Origin: Radiobacillus kanasensis
Lineage (GTDB): Bacteria > Bacillota > Bacilli > Bacillales > Amphibacillaceae
Direction of reading: 5' to 3'
NCBI RefSeq assembly: GCF_021049245.1
Contig: NZ_CP088020.1
Coordinates: forward strand, 998,001-1,062,000
Length of the DNA stretch: 64,000 nucleotides
Below are positions 1 to 4,315 of this stretch, in pieces. Under the pieces are notes generated by a model. That model worked only from the letters and a program-made list of their open reading frames with translations. It was not told the origin of the DNA and ran no database searches. A program made the position numbers and the translations under genes. Each line of letters begins with the position of its first letter. Position 1 is the first letter of the stretch.

Positions 1-162
1 GACGAAGTTGCCCTTATGGAAATCTCTCTTGAGGCATACCCGGATGACTTTAAACAGATCTTGTATGAGGCAATGGTCGAAGAATTAGAAGATCAAACCA
101 TTCCAACTACATGGCATACACAGTTTGACCGTACTCTAGTTGAAGTTGTCCCTACTCCCTAA
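1..162 (+). CDS. Phage major tail (tube) protein, C-terminal end (5' partial)
   Basis: The first frame is open from base 1 and encodes about 53 residues ending ...VEVVPTP before TAA at 160-162. It lies directly upstream of the tail chaperone and tape-measure genes, which is where siphophages place the major tail protein that polymerises into the tail tube. The visible fragment is acidic and too short for a family assignment by itself, so the call rests mainly on gene order and on the Fn3 domain encoded in the next frame. The last sense codon is CCC followed by TAA, a combination that allows a +1 slip onto an overlapping proline codon (see the next entry). Confidence 0.65.
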   Translation, partial: DEVALMEISLEAYPDDFKQILYEAMVEELEDQTIPTTWHTQFDRTLVEVVPTP

Positions 163-424
163 TGCGCCCTCTGGACTAGTAACATCCAATGTCACGGCTA
201 CAGGATTAACGTTGACATGGGATGCGGTTAGTTATGATGAGGGCATTTCAAATTATGAAATATATAGGGATGGAGTTTCAGTAGGGACAAGCGCGACAAC
301 AAGCTATTCGGATAGTGGGTTAACAGCTTCAACCACCTATTCGTATCAAGTAAAAGCTATTGGAGCAAACGGAAAAGAATCTGCACTAAGTACAGCGGTT
401 TCCGTTACTACATCAGCAGCATAA
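140..424 (+). CDS. Fn3 domain extension of the tail protein, probably made by +1 frameshift
   Basis: The +1 frame is open only from 140 (TAG at 137-139) and encodes one fibronectin type III/Ig-like domain: LTLTW, the YEIYRDG strand, then TTYSYQVKA. No ribosome binding site precedes the TTG at 140, so independent initiation is unlikely. Frames 1 and 2 meet at CCC-TAA (157-162): a ribosome slipping from CCC to CCT at 158-160 continues as PNAPSG into the domain. Phage Ig-like domains are known to be appended to major tail proteins by programmed frameshifting, and Listeria phage PSA uses overlapping proline codons with a shifty stop for +1 shifts. The extended product would decorate the virion surface in minor amounts. 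The domain is certain; the recoding is inference. Confidence 0.75.
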   Translation: MKLSLLPNAPSGLVTSNVTATGLTLTWDAVSYDEGISNYEIYRDGVSVGTSATTSYSDSGLTASTTYSYQVKAIGANGKESALSTAVSVTTSAA

Positions 425-450
425 AGAGTAGGGTAATCCCTACTCTTTTT
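423..450 (+). terminator. Intrinsic terminator/attenuator after the tail protein
   Basis: A perfect 11-bp stem (423-433 with 438-448) has a four-base loop and ends in a T run. It lies between the major tail protein and the chaperone. It would lower expression of the downstream tail genes relative to the abundant tube protein. Confidence 0.85.
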
Positions 451-473
451 CTGATGTTAAGGGAGTGTTTTGA

Positions 474-995
474 ATGGCAAAAATGGTATTTATTCGTATC
501 GGTGAAAAACTATATCCTTCAGCAATTACGAATTATTCATTGAGTGTTGGCCATAAGCTCGGTTTAATAGATGGATCCAATTTAAAGGATGTACTTGAAG
601 CCGATTCCGCATTGACAGTTGTTTATTTAGCTGCAATTGGCCCGAACAAAAATATTGATTTTTCATTTGATGAGTTTCTTTTTCTTTATAAAACAGATCA
701 AGAAGAACTGGAACAAAATTATACAGCGATTATTGATGCGTGTTTGGATGTCGTTCCTAATAAATTTGCGGAAGGTTTAAAGAAAAGTACTAACACTAAC
801 GTTGGAAAAGATCAAAAGAAAATTAAATACCCTAGATTAGAAATCGAATGTGTAGAGGACCGTTATGTTTTGTACTGTCTTGCATCAGGCATTGACAGTG
901 ATACATTCTGGCATCATCCGATACCTGATTTAGAAAGGATTTATGAAAGTAGACAGGCGTATAAAGCTTGGGATAACAATCCTAAAACGTATTAG
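474..995 (+). CDS. Putative tail assembly chaperone
   Basis: A 173-residue protein between the major tail protein and the tape measure, the position of the lambda gpG/gpGT chaperone. Residues 1-105 are mostly acidic/helical; a Lys-rich linker (about 103-118) leads to a second part with the Trp/His-rich segment DTFWHHPIPDL, similar in layout to the T extension. Unlike lambda, both parts are in one frame. A TTTAAAG heptamer at 776-782 sits in the correct phase for a -1 slip, and a -1 shift would stop at 791-793, giving a short form of about 106 residues. The start has a GGGAGTG ribosome site. The function is inferred from position; I did not recognise a specific family by sequence. Confidence 0.6.
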   Translation: MAKMVFIRIGEKLYPSAITNYSLSVGHKLGLIDGSNLKDVLEADSALTVVYLAAIGPNKNIDFSFDEFLFLYKTDQEELEQNYTAIIDACLDVVPNKFAEGLKKSTNTNVGKDQKKIKYPRLEIECVEDRYVLYCLASGIDSDTFWHHPIPDLERIYESRQAYKAWDNNPKTY

Positions 996-1006
996 GAGGT
1001 GAGAAC

Positions 1007-4000
1007 ATGGCGAAACAAAATGAAACACAGGTTAAGTTTAGTGTCTTTAATAAGGAGTTTAATGAAGGCATCAAAGAAATGGAAAAGGAAAGTACGAAGC
1101 TTCGAAAAGAATTTAGACTTCAATCGGAACAGATGAAAGATACAGCTAGTGCTACTGAGAAGTTGGAAGCAAGGGTTGAGTATCTAGGAAAAGAACAAAG
1201 CAATGTTAAAAATAGAATCAAATCAACCAGTGATCAACTGAAAAAAGCACAAGAAGTCTATGGCGAAAACTCTAACGAAGCAAACAAACTTTCCAACAAA
1301 CTTCTAGACTTGCGTATATCGGAACAAAAACTAGGTAATGCGATTAATCGTTCAAAGGCTGATATTGAACAGCAAAGTCAATCAATGACAGAGGCTAGAC
1401 AAGATGCACAAAAATACCAACAAGCGTTAGATGGTATTGCTGAAAAGGCTAATGAAACAGGTGATTCACTCTCAACAGGTCTGTCACTTCCGTTAGCAGG
1501 AATCGGTACAGTTGCAGGAATGAGTGCTATGGACATGGATGGTGCTCTGAGATTGATGACTGGTTCTTTAGGTGCAACTGGCGATGAAGCCAAGCAACTA
1601 GAATCAGATATGCGTGCTGTTTGGGAAGATGGTTTTGGTGACAATCCGGAACAAGTTGCTCGATCAATCGCACTCATTAAACAAAATATTAAGGACATTA
1701 ACAGTGGTGAAGATTTACAAAAGATAACTAAAAACATGTTAATCTTAGCAAACGCAACGGAAGCCGATATGAGTGAAGCTACTCGTGGTGTGAATCAGTT
1801 AATGCATAACTTCGGATTAACAGCCCAAGAATCAATGGATCTGTTTACCAAAGGGCAACAAGAAGGTTTGAATTTTTCACAGGAAATGTTCGATAACATA
1901 TCGGAATACGCTCCGTTGTTTAAGCAAATGGGATTCACAGCGCAAGAGTATTTCACAATTCTAGCAAATGGTACAGAGAACGGTGCATATAATCTAGATT
2001 ACATTAACGACCTAATGAAAGAGTTTAATATACGTGTTCAGGATGGTTCTGATACAACAGCAGATGCTTTTGGTCAGATGTCCAAGGAAACACAATCCGT
2101 ATTTAAAGCATTTGAGGATGGTAAAGCAACCACAGAGGATTTATTCAATGCTGTACTACCAGAGCTCGAAAAAATGGAAGACCAGGTGTTGGCCAATCAA
2201 ATTGGTGTAGAATTGTTCGGCAGTAAGTTTGAAGACCTTGAGAAAACGACTGTGTATTCGTTAGATAACGTTAATAACGCTTTTGAAGATACGGAAGGCG
2301 CTATGGATTCATTTGCGAAAACCCAGGAAGATGCTTTCGGTGTTAAATTTAAAAAGACAATGAGAGAGCTCTTGAGAGCGATTGAACCAATTGGCGAAGA
2401 ATTGCTTGATATGGCAGATGATGTAACACCTAAGATTGAAGAGATGGCAGAGTGGTTTGTTAACCTCGATGATGAAACGAAGGATTTCATTGCCACTTCA
2501 GGATTACTAGCAGTAGGATTAGGACCTGCATTAAAGATATTTGGCTCTTTAACCTCTCTAGTGGGTGGTTTTACAAAAGGTTTAGGCAGTAAGGGGTTAA
2601 GTGGCACGATCCTACGATTAGTGAGTAGAGCTGGCCCTATTGGGTTGGCTGTAGGCGCGCTTGGTGGATTAGGAATAGCTATTGGGCAAGCCATTGAAAA
2701 GAAAAACGAGCTTAACGAAGTCTCCTTGGAAACAACTAATGCCATGTTGAAAGAACATGAATCAACGAAAAAAATGATTGATGAGTTTGACAAACTAAGA
2801 GAAAGCTCAAAACTAACCAGAGATGAGTTTGCACGATACATTGATCTTCAAACAGAATTAAAAACGGCTACTGATCCAGGAGTTATCACAAACATAAAAG
2901 ATGAAATGGCAAGTCTGGAAGAAAAGTCCGGATTTACGAATGATGAACTTACGGACATGATTAAACTGAACAGCGATTTAGTGAAAGCCCTGCCTGAAGC
3001 ATCAGATGAAATAACAACACAAGGGAACAAAGTAGCTGGTACTACTGATGAGCTTAGGAAATATAATCAAGAGCTCGCACAAATGGCTACGGTGGAGATT
3101 GAGAAAGAGTTCTTTGAAGCACTGGAGAATCAAAATACTCTGCTTCAAGATAGAGCTGCACAACAGAGACAGATGAACGGGTATAAACAAAAGGAAGCCG
3201 AGATTAGCCAACTTTTAAATGATTATAGTGGTAGGGAGCTTGATGTTTTAAGAGAGCAGGTTGAGGAAGAACTCAAATCCCTACAGGCAAAACAAGCCAA
3301 AGTGAGAGCCGGTACAGCGGAATGGCAGGAATTACAGAAGCAAATAGATCCGTTACAGAAACAATACAATCTCATAAAAGATGGTGAACAAGGTCTACGG
3401 AATCAACTGTTAACGATTAAAAATCAGAGAACAGAACAACAGATAAAGATAGATAATACAACTAAGGAAATTGCCCAGCTTGAGCAGATATACCAAAGAC
3501 TACAACTTAACTATCTGACAAGCGCTGGTATAACGGAAGAAAAAGCACGTCAGGCTGTTCAAGATGGTACTGCAATACAAGCTATCGATACGAAAATAGC
3601 AAAGCTACAAAAGGAAAAGGAAACACTGAAAGAACAGACTCCTATAAACATGCGTAATACAGATGAATATCGAAATGCAGTAGGAGCAATTGATAATCAA
3701 ATCGGTAAGTTAAATACAACTAAAGGTAAGATTAGAGGTCTGGCCAGTGATGCACGTAATTACACAGATGAGCTTAGTAAAGATGTTACCAAAAACGTCA
3801 ATGCAATTTTAAATCCGAAGGCTAGCTCGTTAGATGATAGGTTATCAGAGACAGTTTGGAAGACTATATCATTAAAATATTCAAACGGAAACGGACACCA
3901 CGTTCCAGTGGGATATGCTGATGGAACTAACTTTCACCCAGGTGGTCCTGCAATTGTCGGTGAGGAGGGACCAGAGATAGTGAAAGAGGGCAATAAATTG

Positions 4001-4315
4001 TCACTGCGAAGCTTTGGTATTATTCCTGACCTTAAACGAGGAGCTCGAGTATTTACAGCAGAACAGACGTCCAAAATGTTATCTAAGTTACCTGGTTATG
4101 CAGGTGGTGTTGGGGTAAGTCCAGAGCTATCTAGAAGCTTAGATAATATGAGTTCTATGTTAACTACTACTCAAAATAATACTAACCGGATGAACGTTGA
4201 TGTAGGCGTGGGTGATGTTATCATCGATGGAAGATCTGTAGGGAGTATTGTTTGGAAACCCATTAAGGAATTCATTGATTTGGACAATAATATTAAATCA
4301 GAGTTTCAGGGGTGA
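1007..4315 (+). CDS. Phage tail tape measure protein
   Basis: A 1102-residue protein that sets tail length and probably helps DNA entry. The N-terminal 130 residues form a coiled coil rich in Lys, Glu and Gln, followed by a TP901-type tape-measure core (about 150-470) with repeated helices. Gly-rich hydrophobic segments lie near residues 490-565 (GLLAVGLGPALKIFG; GPIGLAVGALGGLGIAIG), and further coiled coils run from about 575 to 930. The C-terminal region has the GYADGTNFHPGGPAIVGEEG motif that commonly ends such proteins. An AGGAGGTGAG ribosome site precedes the ATG. It is the longest gene here, as expected for a tape measure, and its stop lies just before the distal tail gene. Confidence 0.93.
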   Translation: MAKQNETQVKFSVFNKEFNEGIKEMEKESTKLRKEFRLQSEQMKDTASATEKLEARVEYLGKEQSNVKNRIKSTSDQLKKAQEVYGENSNEANKLSNKLLDLRISEQKLGNAINRSKADIEQQSQSMTEARQDAQKYQQALDGIAEKANETGDSLSTGLSLPLAGIGTVAGMSAMDMDGALRLMTGSLGATGDEAKQLESDMRAVWEDGFGDNPEQVARSIALIKQNIKDINSGEDLQKITKNMLILANATEADMSEATRGVNQLMHNFGLTAQESMDLFTKGQQEGLNFSQEMFDNISEYAPLFKQMGFTAQEYFTILANGTENGAYNLDYINDLMKEFNIRVQDGSDTTADAFGQMSKETQSVFKAFEDGKATTEDLFNAVLPELEKMEDQVLANQIGVELFGSKFEDLEKTTVYSLDNVNNAFEDTEGAMDSFAKTQEDAFGVKFKKTMRELLRAIEPIGEELLDMADDVTPKIEEMAEWFVNLDDETKDFIATSGLLAVGLGPALKIFGSLTSLVGGFTKGLGSKGLSGTILRLVSRAGPIGLAVGALGGLGIAIGQAIEKKNELNEVSLETTNAMLKEHESTKKMIDEFDKLRESSKLTRDEFARYIDLQTELKTATDPGVITNIKDEMASLEEKSGFTNDELTDMIKLNSDLVKALPEASDEITTQGNKVAGTTDELRKYNQELAQMATVEIEKEFFEALENQNTLLQDRAAQQRQMNGYKQKEAEISQLLNDYSGRELDVLREQVEEELKSLQAKQAKVRAGTAEWQELQKQIDPLQKQYNLIKDGEQGLRNQLLTIKNQRTEQQIKIDNTTKEIAQLEQIYQRLQLNYLTSAGITEEKARQAVQDGTAIQAIDTKIAKLQKEKETLKEQTPINMRNTDEYRNAVGAIDNQIGKLNTTKGKIRGLASDARNYTDELSKDVTKNVNAILNPKASSLDDRLSETVWKTISLKYSNGNGHHVPVGYADGTNFHPGGPAIVGEEGPEIVKEGNKLSLRSFGIIPDLKRGARVFTAEQTSKMLSKLPGYAGGVGVSPELSRSLDNMSSMLTTTQNNTNRMNVDVGVGDVIIDGRSVGSIVWKPIKEFIDLDNNIKSEFQG

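Follow-up and report, generated by a model that had tools for sequence, protein, structure and literature searches.

The DNA analysed here, a stretch of 64,000 nucleotides from Radiobacillus kanasensis referred to below as the window, opens inside a prophage major tail protein (MTP) gene (G000:C1:998001 onward) whose 3′ end very probably carries a programmed +1 frameshift of the SPP1 type, with a downstream hairpin that probably raises the slip rate. On most ribosomes, termination at CCC-UAA would complete the major tail protein. On others, with the stop codon still unread in the A site, the peptidyl-tRNA-Pro, whose pairing with the rare CCC codon is poor, would shift one base forward onto the overlapping CCU, and +1 translation would then add an 88-residue Fn3 domain, leaving a fraction of the tail subunits, not all of them, decorated. 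P-site re-pairing from CCC to CCT 158-160 is thus the mechanism we propose, and the hairpin, six bases after CCC, would probably slow the ribosome or termination and thereby increase slipping. The features on which this reading is built are as follows, in window positions.

1..162, + strand: 3′ end of the MTP gene (195 aa whole; L003:12575-13162; start 426 bases before the window)
157..162, + strand: slip site CCC-TAA (CCC 157-159, TAA 160-162)
158..424, + strand: 88-aa extension in the +1 frame, consisting of one Fn3 domain (Pfam fn3 E 9.8e-11), and its stop codon
166..244, + strand: hairpin 3′ of the slip site, starting six bases after CCC; proposed stimulator
166-171 with 239-244: outer stem, GCCCTC/GAGGGC
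about 176-187 with 220-231: inner stem
425..451, + strand: terminator-like hairpin and T-run directly 3′ of the Fn3 stop, read from sequence
474..995, + strand: next gene, in the tail assembly chaperone position (PHROG 5802, function unknown; putative role)
1007..4315, + strand: tape measure protein gene (Pfam PhageMin_Tail E 1e-22; position and length)

The tail protein belongs to PHROG 117 (major tail protein, E 2.5e-13), an identity with which the order of the surrounding tail genes agrees. Only the window edge hides the start of the gene, as the original prediction had supposed: it was located at L003:12575, preceded by GAGGAGG, a strong ribosome site. In frame 0 the gene ends CCT ACT CCC TAA (VVPTP-stop), and the CCC directly before the stop overlaps CCU in the +1 frame (CCT 158-160). 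The +1 frame is open from position 140 and runs from CCT 158 for 88 codons to TAA 422-424. The original prediction had described both a zero frame ending in CCC-TAA at 157-162 and an Fn3 domain in the +1 frame open from 140; the former is read directly from the sequence and the latter is recovered by the Pfam match. Codon-level comparison with a relative (L063) showed that substitutions in the Fn3 segment fall 15/9/47 by +1-frame codon position, and that the codons that differ comprise 41 synonymous and 14 non-synonymous changes. In these patterns the +1 frame behaves as a translated, selected coding sequence, and the Fn3 extension appears to be under purifying selection in that frame. Further downstream, the gene in the chaperone position (window 474-1007) encodes 173 aa and lies 11 bases before the tape measure gene, a gap in which a separate −1 extension of the SPP1 17.5* kind would hardly fit.

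CCC accounts for 33 of the 557 proline codons in 44 window ORFs. Among 59 tRNA genes found, one is a tRNA-Pro, with anticodon UGG (150 of 300 scan candidates were scored, and a missed gene is possible); a similarity search for a second tRNA-Pro returned none. CCC is prone to slippage when the tRNA that decodes it has the anticodon UGG.

Relatives of the tail protein were sought by tblastn among 50,697 phage records, of which 17 match; identity to Tsh of Listeria phage PSA is 45.6% over 98% of the query (E 2e-48). A scan of viral contigs with the MTP returned no relatives. The 3′ ends were compared in 30 rows, one of which (L037) duplicates the L040 junction. Four MTPs have CCC-TAA followed by an Fn3 extension: that of the window and those of G148 (77% identity), Piscibacillus (74%) and L063 (73%). 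PSA and LP-030-2 end in CCC-TGA (ACA CCC TGA in PSA) with extensions of 25 and 34 aa, and LWP01 ends in CCC AGC TGA, with a 428-aa +1 extension that holds Fn3 domains. Twelve proline-ending MTPs carry no extension, 2 with CCC (both terminating CCC-TAA) and 10 with CCA, CCT or CCG; the remaining ten rows have other endings, among them that of an E. cecorum phage whose MTP, at 274 aa, is longer and all in one frame. Among proline-ending Tsh-type MTPs, CCC-stop was thus found in 6/6 with an extension vs. 2/12 without (Fisher p 0.0015, kinship ignored). LWP01, whose last sense codon is AGC, stands outside this test; when it is included, CCC-stop is found in 6/7 extended MTPs.

One relative (L102, MTP 59% identical) has no Fn3 domain, and its CCC-TAA stop is followed at once by AAGAGTAGG..CCTACTCTTTTT, a hairpin near-identical to the window hairpin at 425-451 after the Fn3 stop (both terminator-like hairpins were read from the sequence). 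Because this junction is bare, the Fn3 segment looks inserted between MTP stop and terminator. In a search of 5.8 billion proteins, 47 MTP homologues were listed from 201 candidates, the window's own entry included; 44 of them are 190-201 aa long and three are shorter. A relative with the two parts in one frame would have counted against the original prediction, and none of the 47 listed homologues has the length of an in-frame MTP-Fn3 fusion (about 280 aa), with proteins up to 341 aa eligible.

The original prediction had pointed to related prophages as the place to look for the same junction. It recurs there, and in other genera as well, which excludes a chance junction. In the same genome, another prophage (L004) carries an MTP of PHROG 88 ending CCTACTCCCTAATGCGCCC, 19 bases identical to the window, with another Fn3 domain in +1. 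The junction pattern was found at 29 loci in viral contigs, of which 14 have a long upstream frame that is continued in +1 by an Fn3-like sequence (L010-L012, L015, L016, L018, L019, L023, L024, L026, L029-L031 and L037; L016 with just 21 codons), while the other 15 were judged to be chance (L013, L014, L017, L020-L022, L025, L027, L028, L032-L036 and L038). In genome contigs 5/9 loci were real and four were judged to be chance (L039, L043, L044 and L046). When loci were fetched with the window's Fn3 protein alone, ignoring the junction, 5/6 proved to be +1 and one −1. Of 12 loci that a second Fn3 query returned from viral contigs, 11 have the domain in frame, and those of their Fn3s that passed profile and redundancy filters entered the controls; the one +1 locus is on the L030 contig, already known. 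A class-level Fn3 search (398 genomes) added, among the matches listed, new places in long open frames only, and these were kept out of the in-frame controls.

At ten cassette sites in nine loci, the upstream proteins are MTPs of PHROGs 88, 238 and 820 and major capsid proteins of PHROGs 10, 2263 and 247; overall, four MTP families (PHROGs 117, 88, 238 and 820) and three capsid families (10, 2263 and 247) bear the junction. For four SPP1-like phages the joined products are already annotated. Taken together, the junction, the Fn3 domain and their conservation in relatives leave the +1 programmed frameshift at CCC-TAA, as originally predicted, the best reading.

The downstream hairpin had no place in the original prediction and was found in the follow-up analysis. 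Segment 163-262 folds at −34 kcal/mol, with a z of −4.2 against dinucleotide shuffles. Because protein and codon effects had to be removed, codons were then shuffled synonymously within each Fn3, with amino acids and codons held fixed; the window cassette scored −4.35, and −4.05 to −4.67 when other edges were set for the folded segment. The Fn3s compared were profile matches in the collected loci, including 30 loci from a 299-genome order-level search and 20 further stretches. Cassettes more than 90% alike, profile-truncated matches and those less than 200 bases from a locus end were dropped, and L001, L002, L005, L013, L014, L031, L037, L069, L081, L082 and L125 were skipped as duplicate or chance loci.

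Strong folding was associated with the +1 arrangement, and the hairpin recurs in +1 Fn3 cassettes attached to more than one MTP and capsid family. The 25 rows of +1 Fn3s had a mean z of −2.57, with 20 below −1.645; one of these rows (L173) is a spurious short frame, and without it the mean over 24 rows is −2.76, again with 20 below −1.645. In-frame Fn3s (67 rows) had a mean z of −0.31 with 7 below −1.645, and the two −1 Fn3s a mean of 0.18. The difference between the 25 +1 and 67 in-frame rows gave a Mann-Whitney p of 4.5e-9, kinship ignored. Of the 24 +1 rows, 7 come from junction-pattern loci, where the pattern itself fixes some bases of the 5′ arm, and 17 do not. L030 scored −3.39. Among +1 cassettes left out of the set and scored separately, L041, L018 and L042 gave −2.26, −3.06 and −1.85, and the second Fn3 of L010 gave 0.30. 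Three later cassettes (049ML003, Ray17 and L185) scored −2.65, −2.47 and −3.81 and are not fully independent, as the RNA model led to L185 and the Fn3 of Ray17 resembles that of L010. Since the RNA model (R1) also weakly scores some in-frame Fn3s, it is not specific by itself.

The same prophage provides a natural control, with a related Fn3 in frame on its major capsid protein beside the +1 tail Fn3. The capsid Fn3 (L003:9325-10713; G000:C1:994325-995713; PHROG 10) has neither stop nor hairpin and folds at −11.7 kcal/mol with a z of +0.79, against −31.7 kcal/mol and −4.35 for the tail Fn3. Between 150 and 240 bases into the cassettes the mean z is −0.22, which indicates that strong folding is confined to the vicinity of the slip site. 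PSA and LP-030-2, with CCC-UGA and short extensions, showed no hairpin (z −0.06 and 0.23), so the hairpin is an added element, not one required at every +1 site.

A search restricted to offsets of 6-8 bases after CCC recovered an outer stem (5 bp or longer, 4 or more of the pairs G-C) in 22/25 +1 rows, 12/67 in-frame rows and 0/2 −1 rows. Its offset in the 22 +1 rows is 6 in 14, 7 in 6 and 8 in 2; the three rows that miss it are L134 (4 bp), L067 (site mis-set) and L173. In L067 (CCC TCC TAA) a TCCCCC/GGGGGA stem does start six bases after CCC, with a z of −1.3 to −1.7 in folding segments that cover the stem and were chosen after it was seen. In LWP01 (CCC AGC TGA) the stop comes one codon later and the stem still begins six bases after CCC, with a z of −5.95. 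L041 (Enterococcus innesii) and L018 have at that distance a compact 7-bp hairpin, not the long one, and +1 extensions of 114-115 aa; the extension of L029 is the same as that of L018.

The two arms vary jointly between cassettes (CCCTC/GAGGG, CCCGC/GCGGG, CCGTCA/TGACGG and CCGACA/TGTCGG), and compensatory base changes were detected in two of three cassette groups by shuffles that ignore kinship, on structures drawn from the same sequences. In group A6 (6 cassettes), 8 pairs are changed on both sides, and 0/500 shuffles match this count or the covariation score; pairing stands at 85.1%, against at most 54.4% when the partner is slid. In group A4 (9 SPP1-like capsid and tail cassettes), 97.0% of cells pair and 7 are changed on both sides (0/500), while the 2 pairs with both sides changed were reached by 307/500 shuffles. 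The window's own group, A5 (9 cassettes), pairs at 83.6%, against at most 50.3% with the partner slid, and its covariation is weak, the score being reached by 11/500 shuffles and the number of both-side pairs by 150/500. The synonymous shuffles, pair counts and in-frame controls together rule out a chance hairpin.

A tree of 50 Fn3s, built on few columns and with many forks open, contains a supported clade (98/90) of 13 Fn3s: ten +1, two in-frame and one −1. Of the ten +1 members, nine score −1.6 or lower; the three members that are not +1 have z values of 0.8, −0.2 and 0.9. Fold scores, pair counts and stem search together show the hairpin to be structured and conserved and to stand at a nearly fixed distance from the slip, with weaker support in A5.

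Several arrangements among the relatives are described here in their own right. Two +1 Fn3 cassettes on different upstream frames of one phage occur in L047, L010, L011, L024 and L045; in L047 (Bacillus safensis) they are attached to a major capsid protein of PHROG 247 and a major tail protein of PHROG 238. In a tandem form, a frame ends CCC-TAA, its +1 Fn3 also ends CCC-TAA and a second Fn3 follows in a further +1 frame, an arrangement that would require two consecutive slips. Tandems were seen by sequence in L010 (reverse strand, from 4998) and L134 (G431), and by coordinates alone in G267 and G294. The second slip has no hairpin, folding no better than shuffles in L010 (z 0.30) and L134 (z −0.46). 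The extension of the Listeria phage LWP01 (L060:2045-3334) contains two Fn3 domains in its 428 aa, has the most negative z of the Fn3 comparison and is in part annotated as a separate hypothetical protein. In L128 (G328), a same-clade Fn3 without a hairpin lies in the −1 frame after a 404-codon frame.

The alternative that survives best accepts the +1 slip and takes the hairpin to be a DNA inverted repeat for the recombination that moves Fn3 cassettes, with no effect on the ribosome. Such a repeat would suit the equal fold strength of the reverse strand (mean z −2.38 against −2.72, p 0.25), the bare stop-terminator junction of the Fn3-less relative and the presence of cassettes on different MTP and capsid families. 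It fits poorly with the Fn3s, in-frame and −1, that lack the hairpin within the supported clade, and with LWP01, where the stem keeps its six-base distance from CCC despite the displaced stop. We regard it as unlikely. A hairpin that acts in the RNA as a 3′ stimulator of the +1 slip is what we infer from where it lies and from the in-frame and −1 relatives, which lack it; slipping at the window CCC-TAA, and its rate, are likewise predictions from sequence.

Separate translation of the Fn3 ORF, by reinitiation or from its own start, to yield a decoration protein, was also considered and appears very improbable. Upstream of the slip, the open Fn3 frame includes TTG codons at 140 and 146, but neither has a ribosome site, with anti-SD energies of 0.3 and −0.9 kcal/mol; three real genes gave −12.1, −9.1 and −14.5 kcal/mol and the local median is −3.0. 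A further TTG at 212 (−4.1 kcal/mol) is inside the Fn3 domain. By these energies none of these in-frame start codons of the Fn3 ORF is a usable start with a ribosome site, in agreement with the original prediction, which had named a ribosome site of its own as the finding that would speak against it, and an independent Fn3 start was rejected on this ground. The MTP stop does overlap an ATG (TAATG), as reinitiation might use, but the reading from ATG 162-164, in the third frame, stops after five codons, and CCC is retained where an extension exists.

That a single-base frameshift mutation recently broke an in-frame MTP-Fn3 fusion is hardly credible: the two parts do occupy adjacent frames and abut directly, and one capsid Fn3 of the same prophage is in frame, but the +1 arrangement is kept at 73-77% MTP identity and on other protein families, fusion-length proteins are missing from the listed homologues, the +1 frame is under selection, and conservation of the junction in relatives rules such a pseudogene out.

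Beyond the single gene, we consider it reasonably likely that CCC, a six-base spacer and a hairpin within the Fn3 coding sequence form a mobile recoding module in phages of Bacillales and relatives, which is swapped between tail and capsid families and sets the decorated fraction. If so, the module would define, in bacteria, a class of +1 frameshifts in which a 3′ hairpin is the driver, would contradict the general view of 3′ structures in +1 shifts and may also operate in the SPP1 model system. A stimulatory hairpin would mean that bacteria have a defined, portable +1 recoding element, and would supply a mechanism for the 3:1 ratio of SPP1. The element would also help to find such genes, as the extensions of LWP01 and LP-030-2 are annotated as another gene.

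PRFect describes 3′ structures as generally held irrelevant to +1 shifts, with antizyme an exception (PMC10885494). Eukaryotic ornithine decarboxylase antizyme resembles the window in combining a +1 slip with a 3′ structure (PMC10885494) and in slipping beside a stop codon (PMC5009743), but it is eukaryotic, uses UCC-UGA in most cases and has a pseudoknot; the likeness is convergence only. In phage T3 gene 10 and other phage Ig-domain frameshifts, a fraction of the subunits similarly gains a C-terminal Ig-like domain, although T3 and Lactobacillus A2 use −1 slips (PMC5009743).

Listeria phage PSA, the precedent named in the original prediction, has +1 frameshifts on a proline codon in both tsh and cps (Atkins et al., PMC5009743). 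The likeness to Tsh stands in so far as the tail proteins are homologous (46% identity) and the PSA slip, like the one predicted here, is +1 at CCC just before the stop (PMC5009743). It does not extend to the stop, which is CCC-UGA in PSA, or to the 25-aa extension, too short for an Fn3 domain and with no downstream hairpin found; SPP1 gp17.1*, which the original prediction did not name, is the closer match. PSA Cps also slips +1 at CCC, and the RNA structure 3′ of its slip is described as a stimulatory pseudoknot (PMC5009743), but this is a capsid gene and the slip is at CCC-UCC.

In SPP1, a +1 shift at CCCUAA yields gp17.1*, 87 aa longer than gp17.1, at a ratio of 3:1 (PMC6316719), and the extension is an Fn3 domain that is dispensable for infection and viability (PMC8718954). 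The window shares with gp17.1/gp17.1* the CCCUAA at the end of the MTP gene, the Fn3 domain in +1 and the order of MTP, chaperone and tape measure genes; in SPP1 the +1 product has been seen in tails at 3:1, whereas here it is predicted from sequence. By analogy with SPP1, the Fn3 domain may face outward and bind surfaces. The SPP1-like phage 049ML003 is similar in having the hairpin (z −2.65), an MTP of 177 aa and an annotated joined product. The tail proteins are of different families, PHROG 238 in SPP1-like 268TH003 and PHROG 117 in the window. The accessible text of PMC6316719 makes no mention of a hairpin in gene 17.1, its stem-loops being terminators. We found no published description of the hairpin in the accessible open-licence PMC literature; the primary SPP1 and PSA papers lie outside it, and priority is uncertain. 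The frameshift itself is a known phage device, of which the window holds a further SPP1-type case, and the downstream hairpin would be the new part.
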